A stretch of DNA of 52,812 nt from Nitriliruptorales bacterium (GTDB lineage Bacteria; Actinomycetota; Nitriliruptoria; Euzebyales; JAHELV01). The notes under the pieces were generated by a model. The model did no database searches and was not told where the DNA came from. It was given only the letters and a program-made list of their open reading frames with translations. The stretch covers positions 1 through 52,812 of the forward strand of contig JAHELV010000024.1 in assembly GCA_024644015.1 (NCBI GenBank). Direction: 5' to 3'. Shown one piece after another: positions 30,353-52,443 of the stretch. The translations under genes and the position numbers were made by a program. The number at the start of each line of letters is the position of its first letter. Position 1 is the first letter of the stretch.

Positions 30353-31033
30353 TCACGCCTCCGATCGCGAGACGAAGTCGAAGACCATGATGAGATTGCC
30401 GTCCCGATCGGTCACCTCGACGCGCGCGAGCTCGGCACGGTCGATCGAGCTGGCGCCGCGGACACGGGCGTTGCCCGACGACGTCACGCCCCACGTGCCG
30501 GCGCGCTCTCGGCGACCGTCGTCGGCGACCGCCCACAACACATAGGCGTCGCGGCGCGGGAGATCGGCCGCCTGCAGTTCCACGGTCGTCCCCCACTCCC
30601 AGGCGATCGCCGCGACCTCGCCGGTGGCCGCCGTCGAGCCCGCGGGCGCCGACGCCGCCGCGACGATCACGCGGTCGGGCTCCGACTCCCACGGTGCCAC
30701 CGCGACGACGGCGGCCACCAGTGCGACGATGCACGCAGCGACCGCTGCGCTGCGCCAGCGCCGTAGCTGCGTCAGCAACGAGCGCTCGTGGTCCGCCAGC
30801 CTGCGGATCACGCCGTCGAGCAGATCCTGCGACGGGACCAGCAGATCGGCCTGTACCTCCCGCGCACTGACCCGCCCCAGCAGCCCGGGCAACGCGCTGA
30901 GACGCGCGAGCTCGTCGGTGCAGTCGCGGCACTGCGTCAGATGGTGCTCGATCATGCGGCGTTCGACCGGATCGATCGCACCCAGGACATACGCGCCCAA
31001 CGACTCACGCAGCTGTTGGTGCTCGGGCGTCAT
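30353..31033 (-). CDS. Zinc-type anti-sigma factor (RskA-like)
   Basis: 226 residues from ATG 31033, which overlaps the sigma factor stop as ATGA. The N-terminal anti-sigma domain has a zinc-binding HHLTQCRDC (H-x3-C-x2-C) after an acidic/helix start (LRESLGAYVLGAIDPVERR). One transmembrane segment (about 92-113) follows a WR-rich stretch. The outside part (about 115-226) resembles the RskA/anti-sigma K domain (YVLWAVADDGRRERAG; ARVEVTDRDG). It should hold the ECF sigma factor at the membrane until an extracytoplasmic signal triggers its release, usually by proteolysis. Confidence 0.92.
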   Translation of the reverse strand: MTPEHQQLRESLGAYVLGAIDPVERRMIEHHLTQCRDCTDELARLSALPGLLGRVSAREVQADLLVPSQDLLDGVIRRLADHERSLLTQLRRWRSAAVAACIVALVAAVVAVAPWESEPDRVIVAAASAPAGSTAATGEVAAIAWEWGTTVELQAADLPRRDAYVLWAVADDGRRERAGTWGVTSSGNARVRGASSIDRAELARVEVTDRDGNLIMVFDFVSRSEA

Positions 31034-31536
31034 CCGACCACCCCCATCTCCTCGAGCCTCAGCCGCAACGCGCGCAGTCCGTAGTACAGCCGCGACTTGA
31101 CCGTGCCGTCGGGCACGCCGAGCAGTGCCGCCGCCTCGGCCACGGTGTGCCCGCGGTAGTGGCACGCCAGTATGGCCTCACGGTGGGCGAACGAGAGTCC
31201 CGAGAGCGCCTCGGCCACCTGCCAGGTCTCCAGCATCCGGTCGATGTCGTTGACCGGATCGGTCAAGCCGACCGACAGCGCGGAGTGCTCGGGACGCGCG
31301 TCGCGACGGCGGACACGGTCGATGATCAGATTGCGCGCGATCGTGAACAGCCACGCCGACACCGGCCCCCGGGTCTCGTCGTAGCGATCGCGGGCACGCC
31401 ACGCGCGGACGAGCGTGTCCTGCACCACCTCCTCGGCGGCCTGGCTGTCGCCCAGCCGACGGTAGGCGAAGACATACAGCGGTCCGGCGTAGACGTCATG
31501 CAACGCCCGCACCGATTCCACTCCTGACGTGCCCAC
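31030..31536 (-). CDS. ECF RNA polymerase sigma factor
   Basis: 168 residues from GTG 31536, with AGGAG 10 nt upstream; a second GTG (VRALHDVY) with its own AGGAG is a shorter alternative. Region 2 contains LYVFAYRRLGDSQAAEEVVQDTLVRAW and SAWLFTIARNLIIDRVRRR. Region 4 has HREAILACHYRGHTVAEAAALLGVPDGTVKSRLYYGLRALR, the -35 recognition helix. The pairing with an RskA-like anti-sigma factor suggests a SigK/ECF19-type system. Its operon also carries a lipoprotein just upstream. Confidence 0.95.
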   Translation of the reverse strand: MGTSGVESVRALHDVYAGPLYVFAYRRLGDSQAAEEVVQDTLVRAWRARDRYDETRGPVSAWLFTIARNLIIDRVRRRDARPEHSALSVGLTDPVNDIDRMLETWQVAEALSGLSFAHREAILACHYRGHTVAEAAALLGVPDGTVKSRLYYGLRALRLRLEEMGVVG

Positions 31537-32965: not shown

Positions 32966-35900
32966 ATGACGAAGGCAGCCACCAGCCACGTGGAGGACCG
33001 CTGGAACGCCAGACCGGTCCTGGCTGCGATCGTCCGCGGCGTGGCGTTCCTCGTGCCGATCGCGATGTCGACCGCGTTCGCAATGATCGTGACGGCCGCT
33101 CTGCCGTCACCGAGCTCGCGTGCCACGCAGATCACGATGTGGCTGGTGGTCGCCGTCGCGTCCACCGGTGTGCTGATAGTGACCGACGTCGCGGCACGGC
33201 GGATCCTGCCGCTGGCGGCGCTGCTCAACCTGTCGATCGTGTTCCCGGACGAGGCGCCTTCCCGGTACAAGATCGCGCGTCGTGCCGGCGGCGTCCGCAG
33301 CCTGGAGGCTCGGCTCGAGCAGGCGCGACGCCTCGGCGTCACCGACGAGCCAAGCAGGGCGGCCGGGCTCATCCTCGAGCTCGTGACCGCGCTCCAGCGC
33401 CACGACCGCAAGACACGCGGCCACTCGGAGCGTGTCCACCTGTTCACCGAGATGCTCGCGCAGGAGCTGAAGCTGCCCGATGGGGATCGCGACCGGTTGC
33501 GCTGGGCCGCACTCGTGCACGACGTCGGCAAGTTGACGGTCGCCGAAGACGTGCTGAACAAGCCTGCGAAACCCGACCCCGACGAGTGGGAACAGCTGCG
33601 TCGACATCCCAACGAGGGTGCCAAGCTGTGCGAGGCGCTGCGAGCCTGGATGGGCGACTGGTGGCTGGCGATCGAACAGCATCACGAGCACTACGACGGC
33701 AACGGCTATCCCCGCGGACTCGCCGGCAGCCAGATCTCGCTCGGCGCACGCATCGTCAGCGTCGCCGACGCGTTCGAGGTGATGACCGCCGCTCGCTCCT
33801 ACAAGCATGCACAGACCGCAGCGGCCGGCCGCGAAGAGCTCTCACGGTGCGCCGGCACGCAGTTCGACCCCGCCATCGTCCGTGCATTCCTCAACATCTC
33901 GCTGGGTCGACTGCGGCTCGCGCTGGGGCCCCTCGCGTGGCTGGCCCAGTTCCCCGCACTCGAGAGTGTGATCCGCGCGGGCGGCCTGCTGCGGCTCGCG
34001 GGCGGGCTCCTGACCGCCGGCACCCTCGCCGTGCTGATCGGCGCGCCGACCCACGCAACCCCGACCCCCGCCGCGTCCGCCGGCGAAACCGTTGCTGACC
34101 TCGCCGACCACGCGACGCCCCCCGCACGCGAGCCGCGCGTCTTCGTCACGACCGACGAACCGGTTCTGTCAGTGCCGATACTGATTCCACAAGCCGATCC
34201 GTTCACGCCAGCGTCGGACCTACCGGACACTGCGGCGCCTGAGCCGAATCCGACTCCGCCTGCTCCGGTGTGGCCGACTCCCGCGAACCCCGTGCCACCA
34301 TTCGAACCGCCCGAGGGCCCTCCCGTACCACAGCCTCCCGCGGAGACGCCGCAACCGCCTGACGAGCCGACGCCGCAGCCAACTGACGGGCCGACGCCCT
34401 CGGACCCGGTGGCAACGCCGCCGCCGGCGCCACCCCAGACCCCGCCGACCGCGGTTGCGGACGCGACCACCATGGCCGAGGACACGGTCGCCACCATCGA
34501 CGTCCTCGCCAACGACACCGATGCCGACGGTGATGCCCTCGCGGTGACGTCGGTGACCGCCGGCGGCGCCGGCGCCACCGTCCTCAACGGCGACGACACG
34601 ATCGACTACACCCCCGATCCCGAGGCGAACGGAATCGACAGCTTCACCTACGACGTCACCGACGGCGCCGCAACCGTCACGGCAACGGTCACCGTGACGG
34701 TCACCGCGGTCAACGATGCACCCAGCTTCACCCCAGGTGCGGACCAGTCCATCGCCGAGGACGCGGGCCCGCAGACCGTCACGAACTGGGCCACCGCGAT
34801 GACTCCGGGGCCGGCGAACGAGGCGTCTCAGACCACCAGCTTCAACGTCGTCGCGGACGACCCGGCCCTGTTCGTGGCCGGCCCGGCCGTCGACCCGGCG
34901 ACCGGGGACCTGACGTACACGCCGGCGGACGACGCGAACGGCACCAGCACCATCACGGTCGTCCTACGCGACAACGGTGGGACCGCCGACGGAGGGGTCG
35001 ACGCGAGTGCACCAGCGACGTTCGACGTCGTGATCAGCCCGGTCAACGACCCACCGACGGCGTTCGACGACACTGCAGCCACGCAGGAGGACACGGCCGT
35101 CGTCATCGATGTGCTCGCCAACGACACCGACGTCGACGGTGACGTGCTGTCCGTGGCGTCCTACGACGCCGCCGGCATCACCGACGGCGCGCTCGTCGAT
35201 CTGGGCGGCGGGAGCTTCCGCTTCACACCCGATCCGGACTTCTTCGGGACGCAGACGTTCGACTACGTCGCCGCCGACCCGTCGGGCGCGACCGCGTCCG
35301 CGACGGCGACGATCACCGTGGTCCCCCAGCCCGACGACCCGATCGCCGCCGACGACAGCTACTCCGTCGCGGTGCTCGCCGTGCTGACGATCCCGGCGCC
35401 CGGCGTGCTGGCCAACGACAACGACCCCGACGACGACCCGCTGACGATCACGGCGAACACCGACCCGGCCCTCGGCCTGTTGACGCTCAACCCCGACGGT
35501 TCCTTCACCTACATCGGGGTGGTCCTCGGCGACCAGACCTTCACGTACACCGTCAGCGACGGCACCGGCAGGTCCGACACGGCGACCGTCACCATCAGCG
35601 TGCAGGCCGCCCCGGTCACGACGTCGACCTTCTACCTCGGCACGAGCGGCAGCGACCCCGACAACTACGCGCTCGAGGACGCGGCCCCGCCGGCGGGCGA
35701 CCCTGAACCCGACCACGACAGCGATGGCAATCCTGGGCTGCACATCAACAACAGCAGCGGCAACGAAGACGACACCGACCCCACGAAGTACCAGCACTGG
35801 ACCCGGACGTACAGCGCGCCGACGACGTACTCGGGCGAGGTGCGCCTCGCGTTGTGGAGCACGCCCGAGAACTTCGACGACAGCGACGACGGCCATTACC

Positions 35901-36145
35901 ACATCTACCTGCACGACTGCGCGAGCGACGGCACCGACTGCAACCTGCTGTTGGAGACCGACTCGCACATCGACGACTGGAACGGCGGCGTGGCGGACTG
36001 GACGTTCAGGGAGCTGTCGCTCGGCAGCATCGACCACACGTTCGCCGTCGGGCGCATGCTGCGGGTGCGCCTGATGTTCGGGCACAACGCGATGTGGGTG
36101 GCGATGAGCCAGGACCGCCCGACACGGATCATCCTCAGCGACTAG
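32966..36145 (+). CDS. HD-GYP phosphodiesterase-like protein fused to outside cadherin-like repeats (copy 1)
   Basis: 1,059 residues from ATG 32966 (GAGGG close upstream). Two N-terminal membrane segments (about 20-45 and 54-73) precede a complete HD-GYP domain (about 130-320): RGHSERVH, LVHDVGKL (His185-Asp186), RRHPNEGAKL, EQHHEHYDGNGYP and ARIVSVADAFEVMTAARSYK. A third membrane segment follows at about 341-360. A 130-residue proline-rich stalk leads to four repeats of about 90-110 residues (about 495-880). Three are cadherin-like/Big_9 type (motifs EDTVATIDVLANDTDADGD, DSFTYDVTDGAA); the second is more divergent. A C-terminal 170-residue domain with YQHWTRTYSAPTTYSG and GHYHIYLHDCAS ends the protein. 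The predicted topology puts the phosphodiesterase inside and the repeats outside. Intact HD-GYP domains degrade cyclic di-GMP; activity here is inferred. The joining of HD-GYP to a large ectodomain is very unusual. Confidence 0.9.
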   Translation: MTKAATSHVEDRWNARPVLAAIVRGVAFLVPIAMSTAFAMIVTAALPSPSSRATQITMWLVVAVASTGVLIVTDVAARRILPLAALLNLSIVFPDEAPSRYKIARRAGGVRSLEARLEQARRLGVTDEPSRAAGLILELVTALQRHDRKTRGHSERVHLFTEMLAQELKLPDGDRDRLRWAALVHDVGKLTVAEDVLNKPAKPDPDEWEQLRRHPNEGAKLCEALRAWMGDWWLAIEQHHEHYDGNGYPRGLAGSQISLGARIVSVADAFEVMTAARSYKHAQTAAAGREELSRCAGTQFDPAIVRAFLNISLGRLRLALGPLAWLAQFPALESVIRAGGLLRLAGGLLTAGTLAVLIGAPTHATPTPAASAGETVADLADHATPPAREPRVFVTTDEPVLSVPILIPQADPFTPASDLPDTAAPEPNPTPPAPVWPTPANPVPPFEPPEGPPVPQPPAETPQPPDEPTPQPTDGPTPSDPVATPPPAPPQTPPTAVADATTMAEDTVATIDVLANDTDADGDALAVTSVTAGGAGATVLNGDDTIDYTPDPEANGIDSFTYDVTDGAATVTATVTVTVTAVNDAPSFTPGADQSIAEDAGPQTVTNWATAMTPGPANEASQTTSFNVVADDPALFVAGPAVDPATGDLTYTPADDANGTSTITVVLRDNGGTADGGVDASAPATFDVVISPVNDPPTAFDDTAATQEDTAVVIDVLANDTDVDGDVLSVASYDAAGITDGALVDLGGGSFRFTPDPDFFGTQTFDYVAADPSGATASATATITVVPQPDDPIAADDSYSVAVLAVLTIPAPGVLANDNDPDDDPLTITANTDPALGLLTLNPDGSFTYIGVVLGDQTFTYTVSDGTGRSDTATVTISVQAAPVTTSTFYLGTSGSDPDNYALEDAAPPAGDPEPDHDSDGNPGLHINNSSGNEDDTDPTKYQHWTRTYSAPTTYSGEVRLALWSTPENFDDSDDGHYHIYLHDCASDGTDCNLLLETDSHIDDWNGGVADWTFRELSLGSIDHTFAVGRMLRVRLMFGHNAMWVAMSQDRPTRIILSD

Positions 36146-36302
36146 CGGTCCCGGCGTCGACGTTCAGGGATCGCGCACGGCGCTTACGCATCGCGCCGTG
36201 TGCGCGACGGGCTTGTGGAAACGACCAACGCGCAGAGCGGTCCGACAACCCGTGACCATGGGACGCCACCGGACGATCCGCGCCGGCGGTTGAGGACGCG
36301 CG

Positions 36303-38801
36303 ATGGCACGGGCACAGATCGGTAGGGCGGAGGGCCGGTGGCGAGCGAAGCCGGGCCTGGCGACGGTCGTCCGGACGGCCGCGTTCCTGGGACCGGTCGC
36401 CATGTCCGCCGCCTTCGCGATCGGAGCCGGCGCAACCTTACCGCCGGCACCGACCACCACGTCACGCATCGTGATGTGGCTGATCGTCGCCGCCGCGTCG
36501 ACCGGCGTGCTGCTGCTGACCGACCGGGCTGCCCGGCGCCTGCTGCCGCTGGCGGCGCTGCTGAACCTGTCGATCGTCTTTCCCGATCATGCGCCCTCGC
36601 GGTACCGCGTCGCCCGCCGCGCAGGCGGCGTCAGAACCCTGCAGGCACGGCTCGAGCGGGCGCGGCAGCTCGGCGTCGAGCGCGAACCGGTTGCTGCGGC
36701 GGCGCTGATCCTCGAGCTCGTGACGGCGCTGCAGCATCACGACCGGCGCACACGAGGGCACTCCGAACGCGTGCATCTGTTCACCGAGATGCTCGCGGCG
36801 GAGCTGGGGCTGCCGGAGGCCGACCGCGACCGGCTGCGCTGGGCGGCGCTCGTGCACGACGTCGGCAAGCTGACCGTCCCCGCCGACGTGCTCAACAAGG
36901 CCGACGCGCCCGACCCCAGAGACTGGGAGCTACTCCGGCGGCACCCGGTCGAGGGCGCACGGCTGTGCGCGGCGTTGCGACCGTGGATGGGGCGCTGGTG
37001 GTCCGCGATCGAACAGCATCACGAGCACTATGACGGCAACGGCTATCCACGCGGCCTGGCCGGCAAGGACATCTCGCTGGGCGCACGCATCGTGAGCGTT
37101 GCCGACGCGTTCGAGGTGATGACCGCCGCACGCTCGTACAAGCAGCCCATGAGCGCGGTCGCGGGGCGGGAAGAGCTCGCACGGTGCGCAGGCACGCAGT
37201 TCGACCCGGACATCGTGCGCGCGTTTCTGAACATCTCGCTGGGCCGGCTCCGGATCGCGCTCGGGCCGCTTTCGTGGCTGGTGCAGTATCCCGCGCTCCA
37301 GGGCGCGATCCGCACGGAACACCTGCTGCGACTGGTCAGCGGCATGGCGGCCGCCGCGACCACTGCTGTCCTCATCGGCGCTCCGACGTCAGCGACCGAC
37401 GGGCCGTCCCCGAACGCGGCCACAGCGGTCGCGGCGGCTGACCGGGCGGCCGGCCAGACGGGACGCCAGCCCCCACCGGTCGCCGCTGTCGAACCGCGGT
37501 CAGCGTCACGGGTGCCGCCCATCGTGGTCGCCGAGGACGCCCCGTTCACTGCCGTTCCGCAGGTCTCGGACCTCGAGATCACCGAGGTGGCGCCGCCGGC
37601 GACGCAACCGCTGCCTGCCCCGCCGGACGGGCCGGCGGCCGGGCAGCCCGCGTCCCCTCCACCGACACCGACCCGCGCGCCACCCCCCGCAACCACAGCG
37701 CCGTCACCCGCCGCGCCGACCGCAACGGCCGACACCGCGACGGTCGCCGAGGACGGCACGGTGACCGTTGACGTGCTGGCCAACGACCGCGACCACGACG
37801 GCGACCCGCTGCGCGTCACAGCCGTTGGTGTCGCCGGCATCGGTGCCGCGGCCCACAACGGCGACGGAACGGTCACGTACACGCCGGACGCCGACGTCCA
37901 CGGCGTCGACACCTTCGACTACGAGATCACCGACGGGACCGCCCGCGCAACCGCGACGGTCACGGTGACCATCACGCCGTCGCCCGACGAGCCGATCGCG
38001 TCCGACGATCGTTACGTCGTCGAGCGCAACAGCCAACTGGTCGTCACCGCGCCGGGCGTCCAGGCGAACGACCGCGACGCCGACGATGACGTGCTCACCA
38101 CGACGCTGCTGTCACCTCCGGCTCAGGGCACATTGGTGCTCAACGCCGACGGGTCGTTCACCTACGCCGCGAACGGCCCCGCTGGCGTGTTCTCGTTCAC
38201 CTACGAGGTCGCCGACGGGACGGGACGGTCAGACCAGGCGACCGTCACGATCGACGTGGGGTCGACCGTGAACCACAGCCCGTTCTGGTTGGCGGGCAGC
38301 GGTACCGACGCCACCACATACGCGTTGACGACATCGCCACCTCCGCGGCAGAGTCCGGAGCCAGACCACGACGCCGACGGCAACCTGGGCCTGAGCCTCA
38401 GCGACAGCGACGGCACGGCGACCGAGACGGACCCGGCGGCGTACCAGCACTGGACCCGGACGTTCGGCGCGCCGACGACCTACTCGGGTCAGGTCCGGCT
38501 GGCGCTGTGGAGCACGGTCGCCGACTTCGACGGCACCGCAGACGGCCACTATCACGCCTACCTGCACGACTGCGCGAGCAACGGCACCGATTGCCGGCAG
38601 CTGCTGGCGACCGACGCGCACATCGACGGGTGGAACGGCGGCGTCGATGATTGGGTCTTCAAGAACGTGGCGCTCGGCAGCATCGACCACACGTTCGCCG
38701 CGGGTCGCATGCTCCGGCTGCGCCTGATGTTCAGGCACACCGCCATGTGGATCGCGACGAGCGGGAACCGCCCGACGCGTATCATCCTGACCGGACCGTA
38801 G
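36303..38801 (+). CDS. HD-GYP phosphodiesterase-like protein fused to outside cadherin-like repeats (copy 2)
   Basis: 832 residues from ATG 36303. It aligns without gaps to copy 1 over the first 320 residues, and every HD-GYP metal and signature position is kept (HDVGK at 185, EQHHEHYDGNGYP at 237-249). The third membrane segment lies at about 343-363, then a proline-rich stalk with a different sequence, and only two cadherin-like repeats (EDGTVTVDVLANDRDHDGD; FDYEITDGTARAT) instead of four. The C-terminal surface domain is strongly conserved with copy 1 (YQHWTRTFGAPTTYSG, GHYHAYLHDCASNGTDC, NGGVDDW). Tandem duplication followed by change in ectodomain length is the simplest reading. The 157-bp gap after copy 1 holds no visible terminator, so cotranscription is possible. 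Confidence 0.9.
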   Translation: MARAQIGRAEGRWRAKPGLATVVRTAAFLGPVAMSAAFAIGAGATLPPAPTTTSRIVMWLIVAAASTGVLLLTDRAARRLLPLAALLNLSIVFPDHAPSRYRVARRAGGVRTLQARLERARQLGVEREPVAAAALILELVTALQHHDRRTRGHSERVHLFTEMLAAELGLPEADRDRLRWAALVHDVGKLTVPADVLNKADAPDPRDWELLRRHPVEGARLCAALRPWMGRWWSAIEQHHEHYDGNGYPRGLAGKDISLGARIVSVADAFEVMTAARSYKQPMSAVAGREELARCAGTQFDPDIVRAFLNISLGRLRIALGPLSWLVQYPALQGAIRTEHLLRLVSGMAAAATTAVLIGAPTSATDGPSPNAATAVAAADRAAGQTGRQPPPVAAVEPRSASRVPPIVVAEDAPFTAVPQVSDLEITEVAPPATQPLPAPPDGPAAGQPASPPPTPTRAPPPATTAPSPAAPTATADTATVAEDGTVTVDVLANDRDHDGDPLRVTAVGVAGIGAAAHNGDGTVTYTPDADVHGVDTFDYEITDGTARATATVTVTITPSPDEPIASDDRYVVERNSQLVVTAPGVQANDRDADDDVLTTTLLSPPAQGTLVLNADGSFTYAANGPAGVFSFTYEVADGTGRSDQATVTIDVGSTVNHSPFWLAGSGTDATTYALTTSPPPRQSPEPDHDADGNLGLSLSDSDGTATETDPAAYQHWTRTFGAPTTYSGQVRLALWSTVADFDGTADGHYHAYLHDCASNGTDCRQLLATDAHIDGWNGGVDDWVFKNVALGSIDHTFAAGRMLRLRLMFRHTAMWIATSGNRPTRIILTGP

Positions 38802-46667: not shown

Positions 46668-49073
46668 GTGGATGATGACAGGCGGGTCGAGGCGATCACG
46701 GCGACCGCACGGGGGGGTGGCGGCCGGCGGGTCGTCGGCTGCGGCGGTATGGGCAAGACCCATCTGCTGGACCGGGTGGCGGCGGCGCTCGGCGACACGG
46801 CCGTCGTCCGGTGGAGTCCCGCGATCGAGCCTGAGCCCGCTGCCGGCGGGGGCGTGCTCCTCGCAGACGACGTGCAGCTCGCCGAACCCGAAGGGCTGCG
46901 CGTCCTGGCGCACTGGCCTGCTGGCGTCGTCGCCACCCACCGGCCGGCGCGGCCCGCCGCCGAGCAGATCCTCGACGCCGTCGATGGCGCACCGCTGGTG
47001 CTCGAGCCGCTGGACGTCCGCACGGTGGCGGAGGTCCTGACCGCCGCCTGGGGCCAGTCGCCTCAGTCTTCGATCACCGAACAGATCCTGACCGCAACGG
47101 GCGGCGTGCCCCGACTGGTGCTCGCGATCGCGGGCACCGGACCCGTCGGCGAGATCGCCGGCACCGCCGCGCTCAGCGAGATCGTCCGTTCGGAGCGCCA
47201 GCGGCTCGACGACGACGCACGCGCACTGCTCGACGCCGCAGGCGTCCTGTCGGGTCTCGACGTGTCGGTCCTGGCGGCCGCCGCGGATCTTCCGATCGAC
47301 AGAGCGACGGACGCCGCCGAGCAGCTCGCCGCCGCCGGCCTCACGCTCGATGCCGGCGGACGTATCGCCCCGGTGCTCGCAGCGGCGATCCGGCAGTTGG
47401 TGCCGGTGTCGGAGGTGACGGCCATCGTCGACCGCGCCGCTTCGAGCGCCGTGCGGATGGGCCATGACCTCACCGCGATCGCCGAGCACATCCGAGCGAC
47501 CGGTGTCACGAGTCCCGCGGCTGCCGCGTGCCTGCTGGGCGCGGCACACCAGGTGCTGGAACGCACGCCCCATCGCGCACACGCGTGGGTCGAGGCCGCC
47601 GGTGACGGCGGCGCGGCCGCGAACGACGTCACGGCGCTGCGCGCCCTCGTCGCGTTTCGCCAGGGCGAGGTCCGCGACACCGTCACCGCCGTCGACGAGT
47701 TGCTGCGGGCCGACCCGCAGTGGCGCGACGGAGCCCTGAAGCGCGACGCCGTTGAGGCGGGAGCCGTCATGCTGGCGCGACGCGGCGCGTGGGACCGCAG
47801 TGCCGCGCTGGCCGCAGCGGTCGGGCCCGGCGCGGGCAGCGCGGTCGCCCTCGCGGCGATCTCGCGGCTGGCAATCGGCGACGTGCGGGGCCTGCGAGCG
47901 GTGGTCGAGGACGCCACCGGAACCACGTCACCGCAGTTGCGCGCCGCCGCCGCGACCACGCTCGCGCACGCGCTGCACACGACGTTCGCCGACGATCCGT
48001 CGCCCGCGCTGTCGCTGCTGCTCGAGGCGGCAGGACTGTACGAGCTGTCGTCGCCGACGGTGCGCCTACCCGTGGCGCCGCGCACCCTCGCGGGGCTCGT
48101 CGCCTGCCAGCTATGGGAGTTCGACGTCGCGGCGCAGATCCTCGCGGACCCTCCCGCGCAGCCAGACGACCCGCTGACCGCAGGTCGCCTGCTGCGCGCG
48201 TGGGTGGCGCTGCGCCGCGGTGACTGGGTCGCTGCGCTGGCAGAGGTGGAGCGGCACCGGGCAGCCGGACCGTCCGACGAGCGCGAGACGCTGGTGGCGT
48301 GCGCCGTCGAGGCCGGCGTGGCACGCCGGCGTGGCGACCTGGAAGGTATGGACGTGGCGTGGCGGGCGGCGCGGATGCTGCTGCTGCGGCTCGCGCCGGA
48401 TCTTCTGGTGACACAACCGCTCGGCGAACTGCTCATCTGTGGTGCGCGGCTGGGCGACAGCACCACGGTCCACAACAGCCTGTCGGCGGTCCGCCGCCTC
48501 CTGGCGCGGGCCGACCACCCACCCCTGTGGACGCTGCCCGTGCTGTGGGACGAGATGCACATCGCGATCGCCCTCGACGATCTCGACGGCGCGCGGACTG
48601 CCGCACGCGCAGCCGCGGCGACGCCGCACGCGATTGGACGCGCCAGACCGGCCACGCTGGCCGCCCAGTGCTGGGTGGACGCGCTGGCCGCCCCGGCCGA
48701 GCCCGGCCGGGTCCGCGAGGCTGCGACCGGGCTGGCCGACATCGGTTTGACATGGGAGGCATCGCGGTTGGCGGGGGCCGCCGCCATCCGCCTGACCGAT
48801 CGCAGCGCGATGCGTGAGCTGCTCCAGTTCGCGCGCGGGTTGACGGCCGAACGAACGCCGCAGCTGGCCGCCGCCACCAGCGACCTGTCGCCGCGCGAAC
48901 GCGACGTCGCCGCGCATCTGCTCGCGGGGTTGACGTACCGCGAGATCGGTGGCCAGCTGTACATCGCCCCGAAGACCGTGGAGCATCACGTGGCCCGCAT
49001 CCGGCGCAAGTTGGGGGTGAAGACCCGCGCCGAGCTGCTGCTGGCGCTGCGGCGCCACGTCGCGGTCGTCTAG
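46668..49073 (+). CDS. LuxR-family STAND regulator, IniR-like
   Basis: 801 residues from GTG 46668, chosen for the GGGGAGG 10 nt upstream; ATG 46572 and GTG 46437 in the same frame lack a well-spaced site. The N-terminal NTPase has Walker A GCGGMGKT (about 24-31) and Walker B GGVLLADDVQ. A long alpha-helical (TPR-like) middle follows. The C-terminal 65 residues are a LuxR/GerE helix-turn-helix (LSPRERDVAAHLLAGLTYREIG...KTVEHHVARIRRKLGV). Together with the two dynamin-like GTPase genes facing it, this matches mycobacterial IniR, the activator of iniBAC under cell-wall stress; whether it regulates this operon is inference. Its stop overlaps the GTPase stop in a shared CTAG. The 220-bp gap before it has no visible gene. 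Confidence 0.85.
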   Translation: MDDDRRVEAITATARGGGGRRVVGCGGMGKTHLLDRVAAALGDTAVVRWSPAIEPEPAAGGGVLLADDVQLAEPEGLRVLAHWPAGVVATHRPARPAAEQILDAVDGAPLVLEPLDVRTVAEVLTAAWGQSPQSSITEQILTATGGVPRLVLAIAGTGPVGEIAGTAALSEIVRSERQRLDDDARALLDAAGVLSGLDVSVLAAAADLPIDRATDAAEQLAAAGLTLDAGGRIAPVLAAAIRQLVPVSEVTAIVDRAASSAVRMGHDLTAIAEHIRATGVTSPAAAACLLGAAHQVLERTPHRAHAWVEAAGDGGAAANDVTALRALVAFRQGEVRDTVTAVDELLRADPQWRDGALKRDAVEAGAVMLARRGAWDRSAALAAAVGPGAGSAVALAAISRLAIGDVRGLRAVVEDATGTTSPQLRAAAATTLAHALHTTFADDPSPALSLLLEAAGLYELSSPTVRLPVAPRTLAGLVACQLWEFDVAAQILADPPAQPDDPLTAGRLLRAWVALRRGDWVAALAEVERHRAAGPSDERETLVACAVEAGVARRRGDLEGMDVAWRAARMLLLRLAPDLLVTQPLGELLICGARLGDSTTVHNSLSAVRRLLARADHPPLWTLPVLWDEMHIAIALDDLDGARTAARAAAATPHAIGRARPATLAAQCWVDALAAPAEPGRVREAATGLADIGLTWEASRLAGAAAIRLTDRSAMRELLQFARGLTAERTPQLAAATSDLSPRERDVAAHLLAGLTYREIGGQLYIAPKTVEHHVARIRRKLGVKTRAELLLALRRHVAVV

Positions 49074-50605
49074 AGAGACGCCCGCGGCCGGCCACGCGCC
49101 GCGCGTTCGTCGCCCGCGGCCAGGTCTGACAGGATGCCCTCACAGCTGCGGGCGACGATCGCCGTGACCTCGACCGTCGCCCTCGCTGCCAGCGGATGCT
49201 CGGCGCGGCTCCGCCAGCGTGCCCACGCGTCGAGCGCCGCCTGACGAACCACGTCGCCGTCCTGTCGTGCGCCCTCGTCCGACGACAGTCCCAGTCGGGT
49301 CAACGGATCGGCGCCGTATCCACCGAGCAGCCGCTCGGCCTCGGCCGAGGCCGCGTCGTCCAGCGCGACGGTCCCGGCACGCAGCGCGTTGAGCAACCGG
49401 GCCTCGGCGAACGCGTGGGTGCCGGTGACGATCTGCTCGAACTCGCGTGCAAGGTCGTCGCCGCCCCGGGAGGGGTGCGAGTACAGCACCGACGACAGCA
49501 CCGCCAGGCCAGAGCGAGCCTTCAACAGATCGGCACGCCGCGCGAACTGGACGAGCAGGGTCTCGCGCAACGCCCCGACACCGCTGCGTGCCACCAGTGC
49601 GTCCGCGAGGGCCGCTGCGGTGGTCGCCTGCCCACTGCGGATCAGCGCCAGGCTCAACCGGATCCCGAAGACCCCCAGCCGGCACAGCAACGACCGCCGG
49701 ACATCGGCGTCGAGGTCAGAGGGCGCGTCGGCCGCAGCGAACCGGTCGGCCGACAGCAGCAACCGGTCGAGCGTCTCGCGGTCGAGCGCGACCAGCGCGG
49801 CGAGGGAGCGGAACTCGTCCTCACGCAGCGTCGCACCGGTCTCCGCCAGCAGACCAGCGACGGGCAGCACGGTCTGGCACAGCCGCCGCACCTGCGCGTC
49901 CTGCCGGTACCGACCCGCGATCCGCGCCGCGGACTCCAACGCCGCCAGCCGTCCCGCACCGACCTCGTCGGCCCGGGCCAGGACGCCGACCGCGTTCATG
50001 GGGGCGGCCTGCGCGGCGACATCGTCGCGGAACGACTCGAGGAACCGAGCGTCCGACGCATGAAGATGCCGCATCAGGTAGCACACGGCGTCGGCGGCGC
50101 CCGGCCGATCGTCCGGTGCGAGGTAGGCGTGGGTGCGGGCCGACACCTCCGCCGACACTGAACCGATCCCCGGCGTGTCGATCAGCGTCAACGACCGCAG
50201 CGTCGCCGCGGGCCACTCCACGACCACACGGTCGATCGACGCCGGGTCGCGGCCCTCCAGGTCGATCGTCAGCGCCTGCTCGCCACGCCGGAAGGCCAGC
50301 GGCTGCGGTGCACCGTCGGCGGCGTGCGCCGAGACCCGGTAGGTCAGCCCATCGCGATACCACGTGATGATGCGCGTGCACTCGCGCGCATCGGTCGCGG
50401 CCAGCCGTTCGCCGACGAGCGCGTTGAGCAGGGTCGACTTGCCAGCCTTGACCTTGCCGGCGAGCGCGACCCGCAGCGGTTCGTCGATGCGCTCCCTGGC
50501 TGCGCGCAGGTCCTGTTCGGCGCCGGTGTCCGCGTAGCGCTCGCGCGCGCGCTCCAACAGTGCCGCGACCCGATCTCTGACGGCGCTGCCCTCGCCGGCG
50601 TTCAT
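49070..50605 (-). CDS. Dynamin-like GTPase, IniC-like
   Basis: 511 residues from ATG 50605, overlapping the upstream stop as ATGA. G1 is GKVKAGKSTLLNAL (about 50-63), G3 is LIDTPGIGSVSAE, and the G4 region reads GVLARADEVGAG, as in the IniC branch. The rest is helical (stalk-like), without a clear membrane helix. In mycobacteria IniA and IniC are dynamin-family proteins induced by isoniazid and ethambutol and thought to work on the membrane together. It is the last gene of the minus-strand operon. Confidence 0.85.
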   Translation of the reverse strand: MNAGEGSAVRDRVAALLERARERYADTGAEQDLRAARERIDEPLRVALAGKVKAGKSTLLNALVGERLAATDARECTRIITWYRDGLTYRVSAHAADGAPQPLAFRRGEQALTIDLEGRDPASIDRVVVEWPAATLRSLTLIDTPGIGSVSAEVSARTHAYLAPDDRPGAADAVCYLMRHLHASDARFLESFRDDVAAQAAPMNAVGVLARADEVGAGRLAALESAARIAGRYRQDAQVRRLCQTVLPVAGLLAETGATLREDEFRSLAALVALDRETLDRLLLSADRFAAADAPSDLDADVRRSLLCRLGVFGIRLSLALIRSGQATTAAALADALVARSGVGALRETLLVQFARRADLLKARSGLAVLSSVLYSHPSRGGDDLAREFEQIVTGTHAFAEARLLNALRAGTVALDDAASAEAERLLGGYGADPLTRLGLSSDEGARQDGDVVRQAALDAWARWRSRAEHPLAARATVEVTAIVARSCEGILSDLAAGDERAARGRPRASL

Positions 50606-52443
50606 CGCCGATCCCCGTCGTCCGCGACCAACTGCAGGGCGGCGTCGCGCAGGCCGGCGATGCGGGCGAGCTCGGCGTCCACGTCGCCCAGGCGTCGGGC
50701 GCGCTCCTGCTGATCTGCGCGCACCGCCTGCTTGGCTGCGTCGAGCGCTTCGGAGGTGCTCTGCTGAAGGGCGACGGCCTGTTCGCTGAACACGTCACGC
50801 AGTGTTCGTTGCAGCCGGCGCAGACCGTCCCGGGCGTCCTTGCCCACCGAGAAGCCGACCTCGTCGACGTACGAGCGACACGCCTGTCTGGCCTGCTGCC
50901 GGCGTTGGTTGAGTGCGCGCTCCTTCTCGTCGCGGATCGCCTTGCGCCCGAGCACGACACCGAAGCTCAGCGACACCGGGTTGAACAGCCCGAACCCCAT
51001 CACGCTGCCGATGATGCCCGTCATCATGACTCCGCCGTACGAGCCACGCAGCGCGGTGAGCCCCCTGTTGGCCAGGCTGGTCGCGCCCGCGTCCACCGGC
51101 TGGGCCGGACGGACCTGCTCCAGCCGGTCCAGCGGCACGTCGACACCGACACCGGCGAGCGGCGCGGCCTGCTGGTCGGCGAAGTGCTCGGCGACCCGGT
51201 CCGCCAGTTCACGTGCGCGCCGGGTCACCATTGCGTAGCTGGCGGCCACCTCGGTGTTGACCATGCGGTACAGCCACTGCTCGAGCTCGGCCCAGATCTC
51301 GCCAGGATCAACGTCGGCGACCGCGTCGTCGACCCGCGTGACGATCGCGCGCGTCCGCGAACGCAGGTCGTGATCGGCGTCGGCCGCCAGATCGGCGATG
51401 CCGTCCGACAGCGTCTGCTGCCAACGCGCGGCCCGGTCCCGCAGCTCGGTGGCGCGGTGCTGCGCGCGTTCGAGCTCGGCGATCAGCTCGGCCGACCGGT
51501 CCGGATCGGCCAACGCGTCACGTTCGGCACGGTAGCGCGCTTCGAGCTGATCGGCGACACCGGCGACCACGTGGGCGGCGGCCCGGCGCCCGAGTTCCGC
51601 GGCGTTGCCCGCCACGCCCGTGCGCAGGTACGCCAGCAGCGCCGGGTAGCCCGACTCGACGTTGAGCTCACGGTTGTTGTGTGCGGCCGCGAAGGATCGC
51701 AGGGGCGCCGAGGTGGCCAGCAGCTCGGCCCGCAGGCCCCGCGTCTGAAGGTGTGCGCGATCGAGGTCGGCCACCGTGCGCCACTGCGGATAGAAGTCGG
51801 TCTTGGTCAGCACGCAGGCGATCGTCGGGCACAGATCGCGGGCCATCTGGAGAAACGCCAGCTCGGACTCGGTCAGCTCCTGGGAGGCGTCGGTGCACAG
51901 CAGCACGGCGTCGGCGGACGGCAACGCGGCCACGGTCGCGGCGCTGTGGGTCGAGCCGAGGCCTCCGACCCCCGGAGTGTCGACGAGGACGAGCCCGGAC
52001 GCGAGCAGGTCCCGCGGCATTCCGACCTCGACGGCCTGCAGGTTGCGCTCGTTGCCCGGGTTTCCCGTCTCGGAGACGAATGCGGCGACCTCGTCGAGTG
52101 CGATCGGCCGGCGCCGCGGCCGTCCGTCGGCGCCGTCACCTGCCCACAGCGCGAATGCCTCCGGCGTGGCGGCGTGCCGCACCACCGTGGGCACCGCCGT
52201 GGCGACATCGTCGTCGACGGGGCACACGGGGGCTCCGACGAGCGCGTTGACCAGCGAGCTCTTGCCCTGCTTGAACTCGCCGACGACCAGCACCCGGCTG
52301 ACCGGGTCGGTCACACGCGAGCGCACCCGCTCTATCTGCGTACGCAGATCCGGGCGCTCGTACGCCGTGGTCGCGCGCTGCGCCAGATCGAGCACACCGA
52401 TGACCGGGTCGTCACTGGCCGCGACGGTCTGCGTGGTGCGCAC
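50602..52443 (-). CDS. Dynamin-like GTPase, IniA-like
   Basis: 613 residues from GTG 52443. G1 is GEFKQGKSSLVNAL (55-68), with a switch I Thr in the DDVATAVPTVV segment, G3 DTPGVGG (155-161) and G4 LTKTD (212-216). The stalk is long and helical. A hydrophobic segment (about 470-499, GVMMTGIIGSVMGFGLFNPVSLSFGVVLG) can insert into the membrane like the lipid-interacting loop of IniA. In M. tuberculosis IniA is a membrane-remodelling dynamin linked to tolerance of cell-wall drugs. Coupled to the IniC-like gene by an ATGA overlap; separated from the iniB-like gene by 109 bp with two dyads. Confidence 0.87.
   Translation of the reverse strand: MRTTQTVAASDDPVIGVLDLAQRATTAYERPDLRTQIERVRSRVTDPVSRVLVVGEFKQGKSSLVNALVGAPVCPVDDDVATAVPTVVRHAATPEAFALWAGDGADGRPRRRPIALDEVAAFVSETGNPGNERNLQAVEVGMPRDLLASGLVLVDTPGVGGLGSTHSAATVAALPSADAVLLCTDASQELTESELAFLQMARDLCPTIACVLTKTDFYPQWRTVADLDRAHLQTRGLRAELLATSAPLRSFAAAHNNRELNVESGYPALLAYLRTGVAGNAAELGRRAAAHVVAGVADQLEARYRAERDALADPDRSAELIAELERAQHRATELRDRAARWQQTLSDGIADLAADADHDLRSRTRAIVTRVDDAVADVDPGEIWAELEQWLYRMVNTEVAASYAMVTRRARELADRVAEHFADQQAAPLAGVGVDVPLDRLEQVRPAQPVDAGATSLANRGLTALRGSYGGVMMTGIIGSVMGFGLFNPVSLSFGVVLGRKAIRDEKERALNQRRQQARQACRSYVDEVGFSVGKDARDGLRRLQRTLRDVFSEQAVALQQSTSEALDAAKQAVRADQQERARRLGDVDAELARIAGLRDAALQLVADDGDRR

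Follow-up and report, generated by a model that had tools for sequence, protein, structure and literature searches.

Changes in cyclic di-GMP that follow a surface or envelope cue outside the cell are usually studied through flagella, pili and separate adhesin-release systems, and cyclic di-GMP sensing is poorly known in the phylum Actinomycetota. HD-GYP phosphodiesterases of the PmGH and RpfG type usually carry REC, PAS or GAF domains at the N-terminus. PknB-type Ser/Thr receptor kinases connect a cytoplasmic kinase through one membrane helix to exchangeable outer domains. Among actinobacterial membrane HD-GYP proteins, HdgA and HdgB of Streptomyces, with hdgA intact and hdgB degenerate, were described as 6TM-HD-GYP proteins, with no ectodomain mentioned (PMC6205966).

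We analysed a contig of 52,812 nucleotides from a Nitriliruptorales bacterium (the window), in which two neighbouring forward-strand genes, identified by ORF, Pfam and hydropathy analyses, encode putative HD-GYP receptor proteins: P0001 (32966..36145, 1059 aa) and P0002 (36303..38801, 832 aa). They resemble the PmGH and RpfG type in the HD_5 domain, seven of the eight PmGH metal ligands, the GYP motif and the substrate residues. They differ from it in that the putative sensor part lies outside at the C-terminus, in an added two-helix N-terminal module and third helix, and in an R or K at the position of PmGH E185. With HdgA and HdgB they share membrane attachment, and their genome also holds intact and degenerate members; the published description of the Streptomyces proteins sets the two groups apart. 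The likeness to PknB-type kinases (a cytoplasmic enzyme, a membrane helix and exchangeable outer domains) is one of layout only, as no protein kinase domain was matched by Pfam in the window proteins, which have three helices and a predicted phosphodiesterase instead of one helix and a kinase. Judged from their sequences, P0001 and P0002 are rather probably transmembrane phosphodiesterases of the one-component type, acting on cyclic di-GMP and carrying exchangeable sensor or adhesin modules on the outside in a PknB-like layout.

Reading frame, duplication and genomic setting

The two ORFs are co-directional, 157 bases apart, and contain no internal stops. GC3 exceeded GC2 in all segments (0.87/0.51 in residues 1-366 of P0001 and 0.90-0.99/0.47-0.55 in its ectodomain), indicating that enzyme and repeats share a single reading frame. 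The initial annotation, which placed these parts in one protein, is confirmed on this point. An artefact or frameshift joining enzyme and repeats was ruled out by the single frame and by the same domain order in other genomes.

The two proteins are 63% identical overall and 73% identical across residues 1-366, with a dN/dS of ~0.27 in residues 1-366 and ~0.5 in the C-terminal domain. These values indicate an old duplication, with both copies kept under purifying selection. A recent duplication or an assembly duplicate was ruled out by the 73% identity and a dS of ~0.75 in residues 1-366.

The pair is absent in congeners G001 and G002 and is thus accessory within the genus, by loss in congeners or by gain here. 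In G002, a helicase gene is followed directly, without an N gap, by DUF402, lipoprotein, sigma and anti-sigma genes; P0001-P0003 were undetectable at this clean syntenic site. The same genes follow in G001, but that junction contains a stretch of N together with P0003-like fragments and so is not a clean empty site; in G003 the helicase match lies at a contig end. The ECF sigma factor and zinc-finger anti-sigma pair beside the site (30353-31536) is retained in G001 and G002, where the HD-GYP pair is missing. No conserved operon partner or pathway-indicating neighbour was seen around the relatives; we counted this, like the absence from congeners, against the favoured reading. P0003 (38960..40570, forward strand; ORF, Pfam and hydropathy) is a co-directional neighbour that may share an operon with the pair; it has one membrane helix, two similar segments of ~160 aa and a weak CBM_4_9 match. 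Elsewhere in the window, two adjoining dynamin-family GTPases lie on the minus strand (49070-52443). All four genomes of the genus contain a degenerate paralogue without HD-GYP motifs; one copy (L076:6087-7679, G000:C101) has the same N-terminal module and a Pro-rich tail.

The HD-GYP domain and its predicted substrate

HD_5 was matched at residues 142-304 of both proteins, at 33389..33877 in P0001 (E 3.5e-31, 108.7 bits) and at 36726..37214 in P0002 (E 3.6e-33, 115.1 bits), against a curated Pfam cut-off of 27.2. We mapped the active-site residues onto PmGH numbering by alignment (PMC4159591). Both proteins keep seven of the eight metal ligands (H189, H221, D222, H250, H276, H277 and D305). 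They also have the GYP motif, D183 and K225 for catalysis, and R314 and K317, which contact guanine; D308 is replaced by E. These motifs and residues agree with the initial annotation of an intact HD-GYP domain. The eighth ligand, E185, is replaced by K149 in P0001 and by R149 in P0002. A carboxylate at this position, the mark of the trinuclear E/D-T-G subgroup, is absent in both proteins, which places the pair outside that subgroup and suggests that the metal centre is probably binuclear. An R or K here is unusual even within the Y/F subgroup, and we counted this against the favoured reading; PmGH without E185 is still active, at a reduced level (PMC4159591). The residues kept indicate that both domains are likely active as phosphodiesterases.

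The replacement of E185 would also fit an HD-GYP part that acts on another cyclic dinucleotide or merely binds a nucleotide as a switch, and so would the best PDB sequence match, the 3'3'-cGAMP-specific HD-GYP 5z7c, and the degenerate paralogues across the genus. With the remaining catalytic residues and R314/K317 kept, and with 13 GGDEF proteins encoded by the genome, we regard this as quite unlikely; cyclic di-GMP would be the substrate of both domains. The genome encodes three HD_5 proteins: P0001, P0002 and one of the response-regulator type. In this third protein (L003:757-2229) the HD-GYP domain follows a receiver domain and its HD motif is degenerate; immediately upstream of its gene lies one for a protein that, by eye, is HDOD-like.

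Predicted topology and outer domains

Hydropathy analysis indicated helices at about residues 14-48, 53-78 and 339-362 in both proteins. The first two, with a basic linker, form the N-terminal module (residues 1-138; 32966..33379 in P0001, delimited by hydropathy and the family alignment). The third (residues 339-361) lies at 33980..34048 in P0001 and 37317..37385 in P0002, and was found in 66 of the 67 relatives scored below. It is followed by a stalk, recognised by its Pro-rich composition, at 34049..34444 and 37386..37712, respectively. Residues 78-338 contain 37 K/R, versus 14 or 23 in the tails of 698 or 471 residues; across the 67 relatives, K/R amounted to 12% of the HD-GYP part versus a median of 2.8% of the tail. 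An HD-GYP domain in the cytoplasm and a C-terminus outside are consistent with the N-terminal helix pair, the basic charge of the linker and the scarcity of K/R in the tail, and from hydropathy and charge we infer this orientation. Both the third membrane helix and the outward direction of the stalk, as initially proposed, were upheld by these data. An AlphaFold model of full-length P0001, built from two sequences, reached a pLDDT of 33.

The third helix is weakly hydrophobic, rich in A, V and G, and signal-like in both proteins and in most relatives, and candidate A-x-A sites (APTHA/TP and APTSA/TD) lie at its end. The products might therefore be pro-proteins, cut at a signal-peptidase-like site after helix 3, with the ectodomain released and the HD-GYP part staying behind as a membrane enzyme; the occurrence of the C-terminal domain on proteins with a signal-like start would agree with this. 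By eye, however, the A-x-A site varies among relatives, and the fusion is kept across classes, which processing alone does not require. We consider such processing very unlikely.

Beyond the stalk, Pfam and NCBIfam identified four Big_9/cadherin-like (tandem-95) repeats in P0001 (34445..35611) and two in P0002 (37713..38252). The Big_9 matches (E 8.5e-60, 200 bits, and E 1.7e-36, 125 bits, respectively; Pfam cut-off 23.6) and the tandem-95 matches (NF012211; 201 and 119 bits; NCBIfam cut-off 90) were all above cut-off, confirming the annotated cadherin-like repeats and their numbers. Tandem-95 and Bap-like adhesins resemble the window proteins in their Big_9/Cadherin_5 repeats; the window repeats are carried on a membrane enzyme instead, and the secretion signal or anchor of those adhesins was not identified in the window proteins.

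Both proteins end in a conserved domain of about 175 aa, delimited by homologue alignment and predicted structure (35627..36142 in P0001; 38283..38798 in P0002, the copy modelled). It had no match above cut-off in Pfam or NCBIfam and no PDB sequence match. PepX_C (PF08530) gave weak sequence matches in the domains of 2 of 25 relatives (best E 0.0012) and none in the window domain. The AlphaFold model of the P0002 domain, made with 25 homologues, is all-beta with a pLDDT of 96.7, and it aligned with 8yzo over 157 residues (Z 17.2, rmsd 2.5). CocE/PepX C-terminal domains scored Z 10.6-17.2, and the best unrelated fold scored Z 8.6. The domain is thus predicted to be a jelly roll of the CocE/NonD and PepX C-terminal type, in agreement with the weak PepX_C sequence matches. 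The domain annotated as conserved and novel is indeed conserved, but its novelty did not hold: it lacks a Pfam match, yet its predicted fold is known. The likeness to PepX_C, CocE and NonD hydrolases covers the whole length of the domain; the window proteins differ from them in having no alpha/beta-hydrolase domain, and the homologues contain two invariant Cys and mostly retain a DxDxDG-like stretch.

This C-terminal domain was found in 27 of 395 genomes from the class of G107. Its carriers include HD-GYP proteins, proteins with a signal-like start, and Ser/Thr kinases. Two such kinases (L099:4518-6254 and L130:92-1807, from genomes G107 and G666), called by a PF00069 match in G107 and by the sequence of L130, end outside in a PepX_C-like domain. 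That HD-GYP proteins share the domain with receptor kinases is our main reason for favouring a receptor function. Seven further carriers (L131, L133, L136 and L145-L148) have a signal-like start followed by a PepX_C-like domain and a Thr-rich stretch, and end in a hydrophobic segment; they look like a surface protein family without apparent description.

The family in actinobacterial genomes and its proposed function

With a profile built from just the N-terminal module (A4), we found matches in 21 of the 396 genomes sampled from the phylum and in 54 of the 395 from the class of G107; these samples overlap. Mostly from these samples, we collected 96 distinct proteins with the module. By strict motif patterns, 79 of them were intact, and the 67 of these whose frame was closed at the 3' end formed the scored set. 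Repeats were present in 28 of the 67, the C-terminal domain in eight, both in six and PASTA in two (L080 and L082), with PASTA predicted to be extracytoplasmic. Pfam agreed with our local profiles in the relatives scanned, 12 repeat-bearing and two PASTA-bearing. In the other direction, 35 of the 67 had a tail that was only Pro/Ser/Thr-rich or unrecognised, which we counted against the favoured reading. The family is widespread in these actinobacteria and shared across classes.

The initial annotation had proposed a search for this domain order across genomes, and the exact order of the window pair recurred in L132 and L143, among others; L134 has the same order and then further repeats until the contig stops. 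Two giants, L137 and L141, exceed 2000 aa. In L050:1-2830 (G006), repeats continue in another frame past the Pro-rich stretch, through a frame change or an assembly error. A pattern search of named-genome contigs returned only generic HD-GYP proteins because the patterns fell in or near the HD-GYP motif, and says nothing on absence there; in a tblastn search against plasmids, each of the matches listed covered a single part, HD-GYP or Ig.

In a quick tree of the N-terminal module and HD-GYP part, several branches of which are weak, P0001 and P0002 were sisters (100) beside the same-order relatives L050-L052 (SH-aLRT 92). Transfer from a second class was unsupported, given this grouping. At least 12 label changes for repeats and at least six for the C-terminal domain were needed on the tree, suggesting that the outer parts were repeatedly gained, lost or exchanged.

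With repeats on 28 of the 67 relatives, the architecture is common in the lineage. Of the reservation that it might be already common and characterised, only the first half held: the open-access literature searched contained no description of an architecture that joins HD-GYP to cadherin repeats, tandem-95, PASTA or Bacterial Ig. The main text of a 2022 census names neither a cadherin nor an Ig-like domain, and a bare listing in its supplementary tables is possible. Within the open-access literature searched, the architecture is apparently undescribed so far.

We propose that the cytoplasmic HD-GYP domain would, most likely, hydrolyse cyclic di-GMP. The chain would exit the cytoplasm via helix 3, the Pro-rich stalk would span the wall, and a rod of Ig/cadherin-like repeats would be displayed outside with the PepX_C-like jelly roll at its tip. 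Binding of a ligand or surface outside may then alter the phosphodiesterase activity across the membrane, as in PknB-type kinases with swappable ectodomains.

The outer part may instead serve first as an adhesin, mainly attaching cells to surfaces or to one another, with binding causing the HD-GYP domain to lower cyclic di-GMP in direct contact sensing, as the initial annotation proposed. Tandem-95/cadherin-like repeats are a typical feature of adhesins; in some relatives the protein grows to 2400-2600 aa, with as many as ~10 repeats, and a CshA adhesin repeat was also matched in one relative. Many relatives, however, have just one repeat or a short Pro/Thr-rich tail, and the C-terminal domain also occurs on receptor kinases, for which PASTA is typical. 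We therefore hold adhesion as the primary role to be unlikely; a contact-sensing adhesin is, moreover, a special case of a receptor phosphodiesterase.

For the reading of P0001 and P0002 as receptor phosphodiesterases, PASTA domains, otherwise typical of PknB-type kinases, on two HD-GYP relatives and the window C-terminal domain on two kinases form a link between the families. More tentatively, and with appreciable doubt, there may be an actinobacterial class of receptor phosphodiesterases that is the cyclic di-GMP counterpart of PknB-type kinases and draws on a common pool of outer modules, its giant adhesin-like forms sensing contact or matrix directly. If so, one outside cue could be wired to phosphorylation or to cyclic di-GMP turnover. 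With an enzyme inside and a modular rod outside on one polypeptide, their link would be directly testable by domain swaps. If true, the receptor phosphodiesterase reading would mean that, in this phylum, the layout of receptor kinases also serves the breakdown of second messengers.
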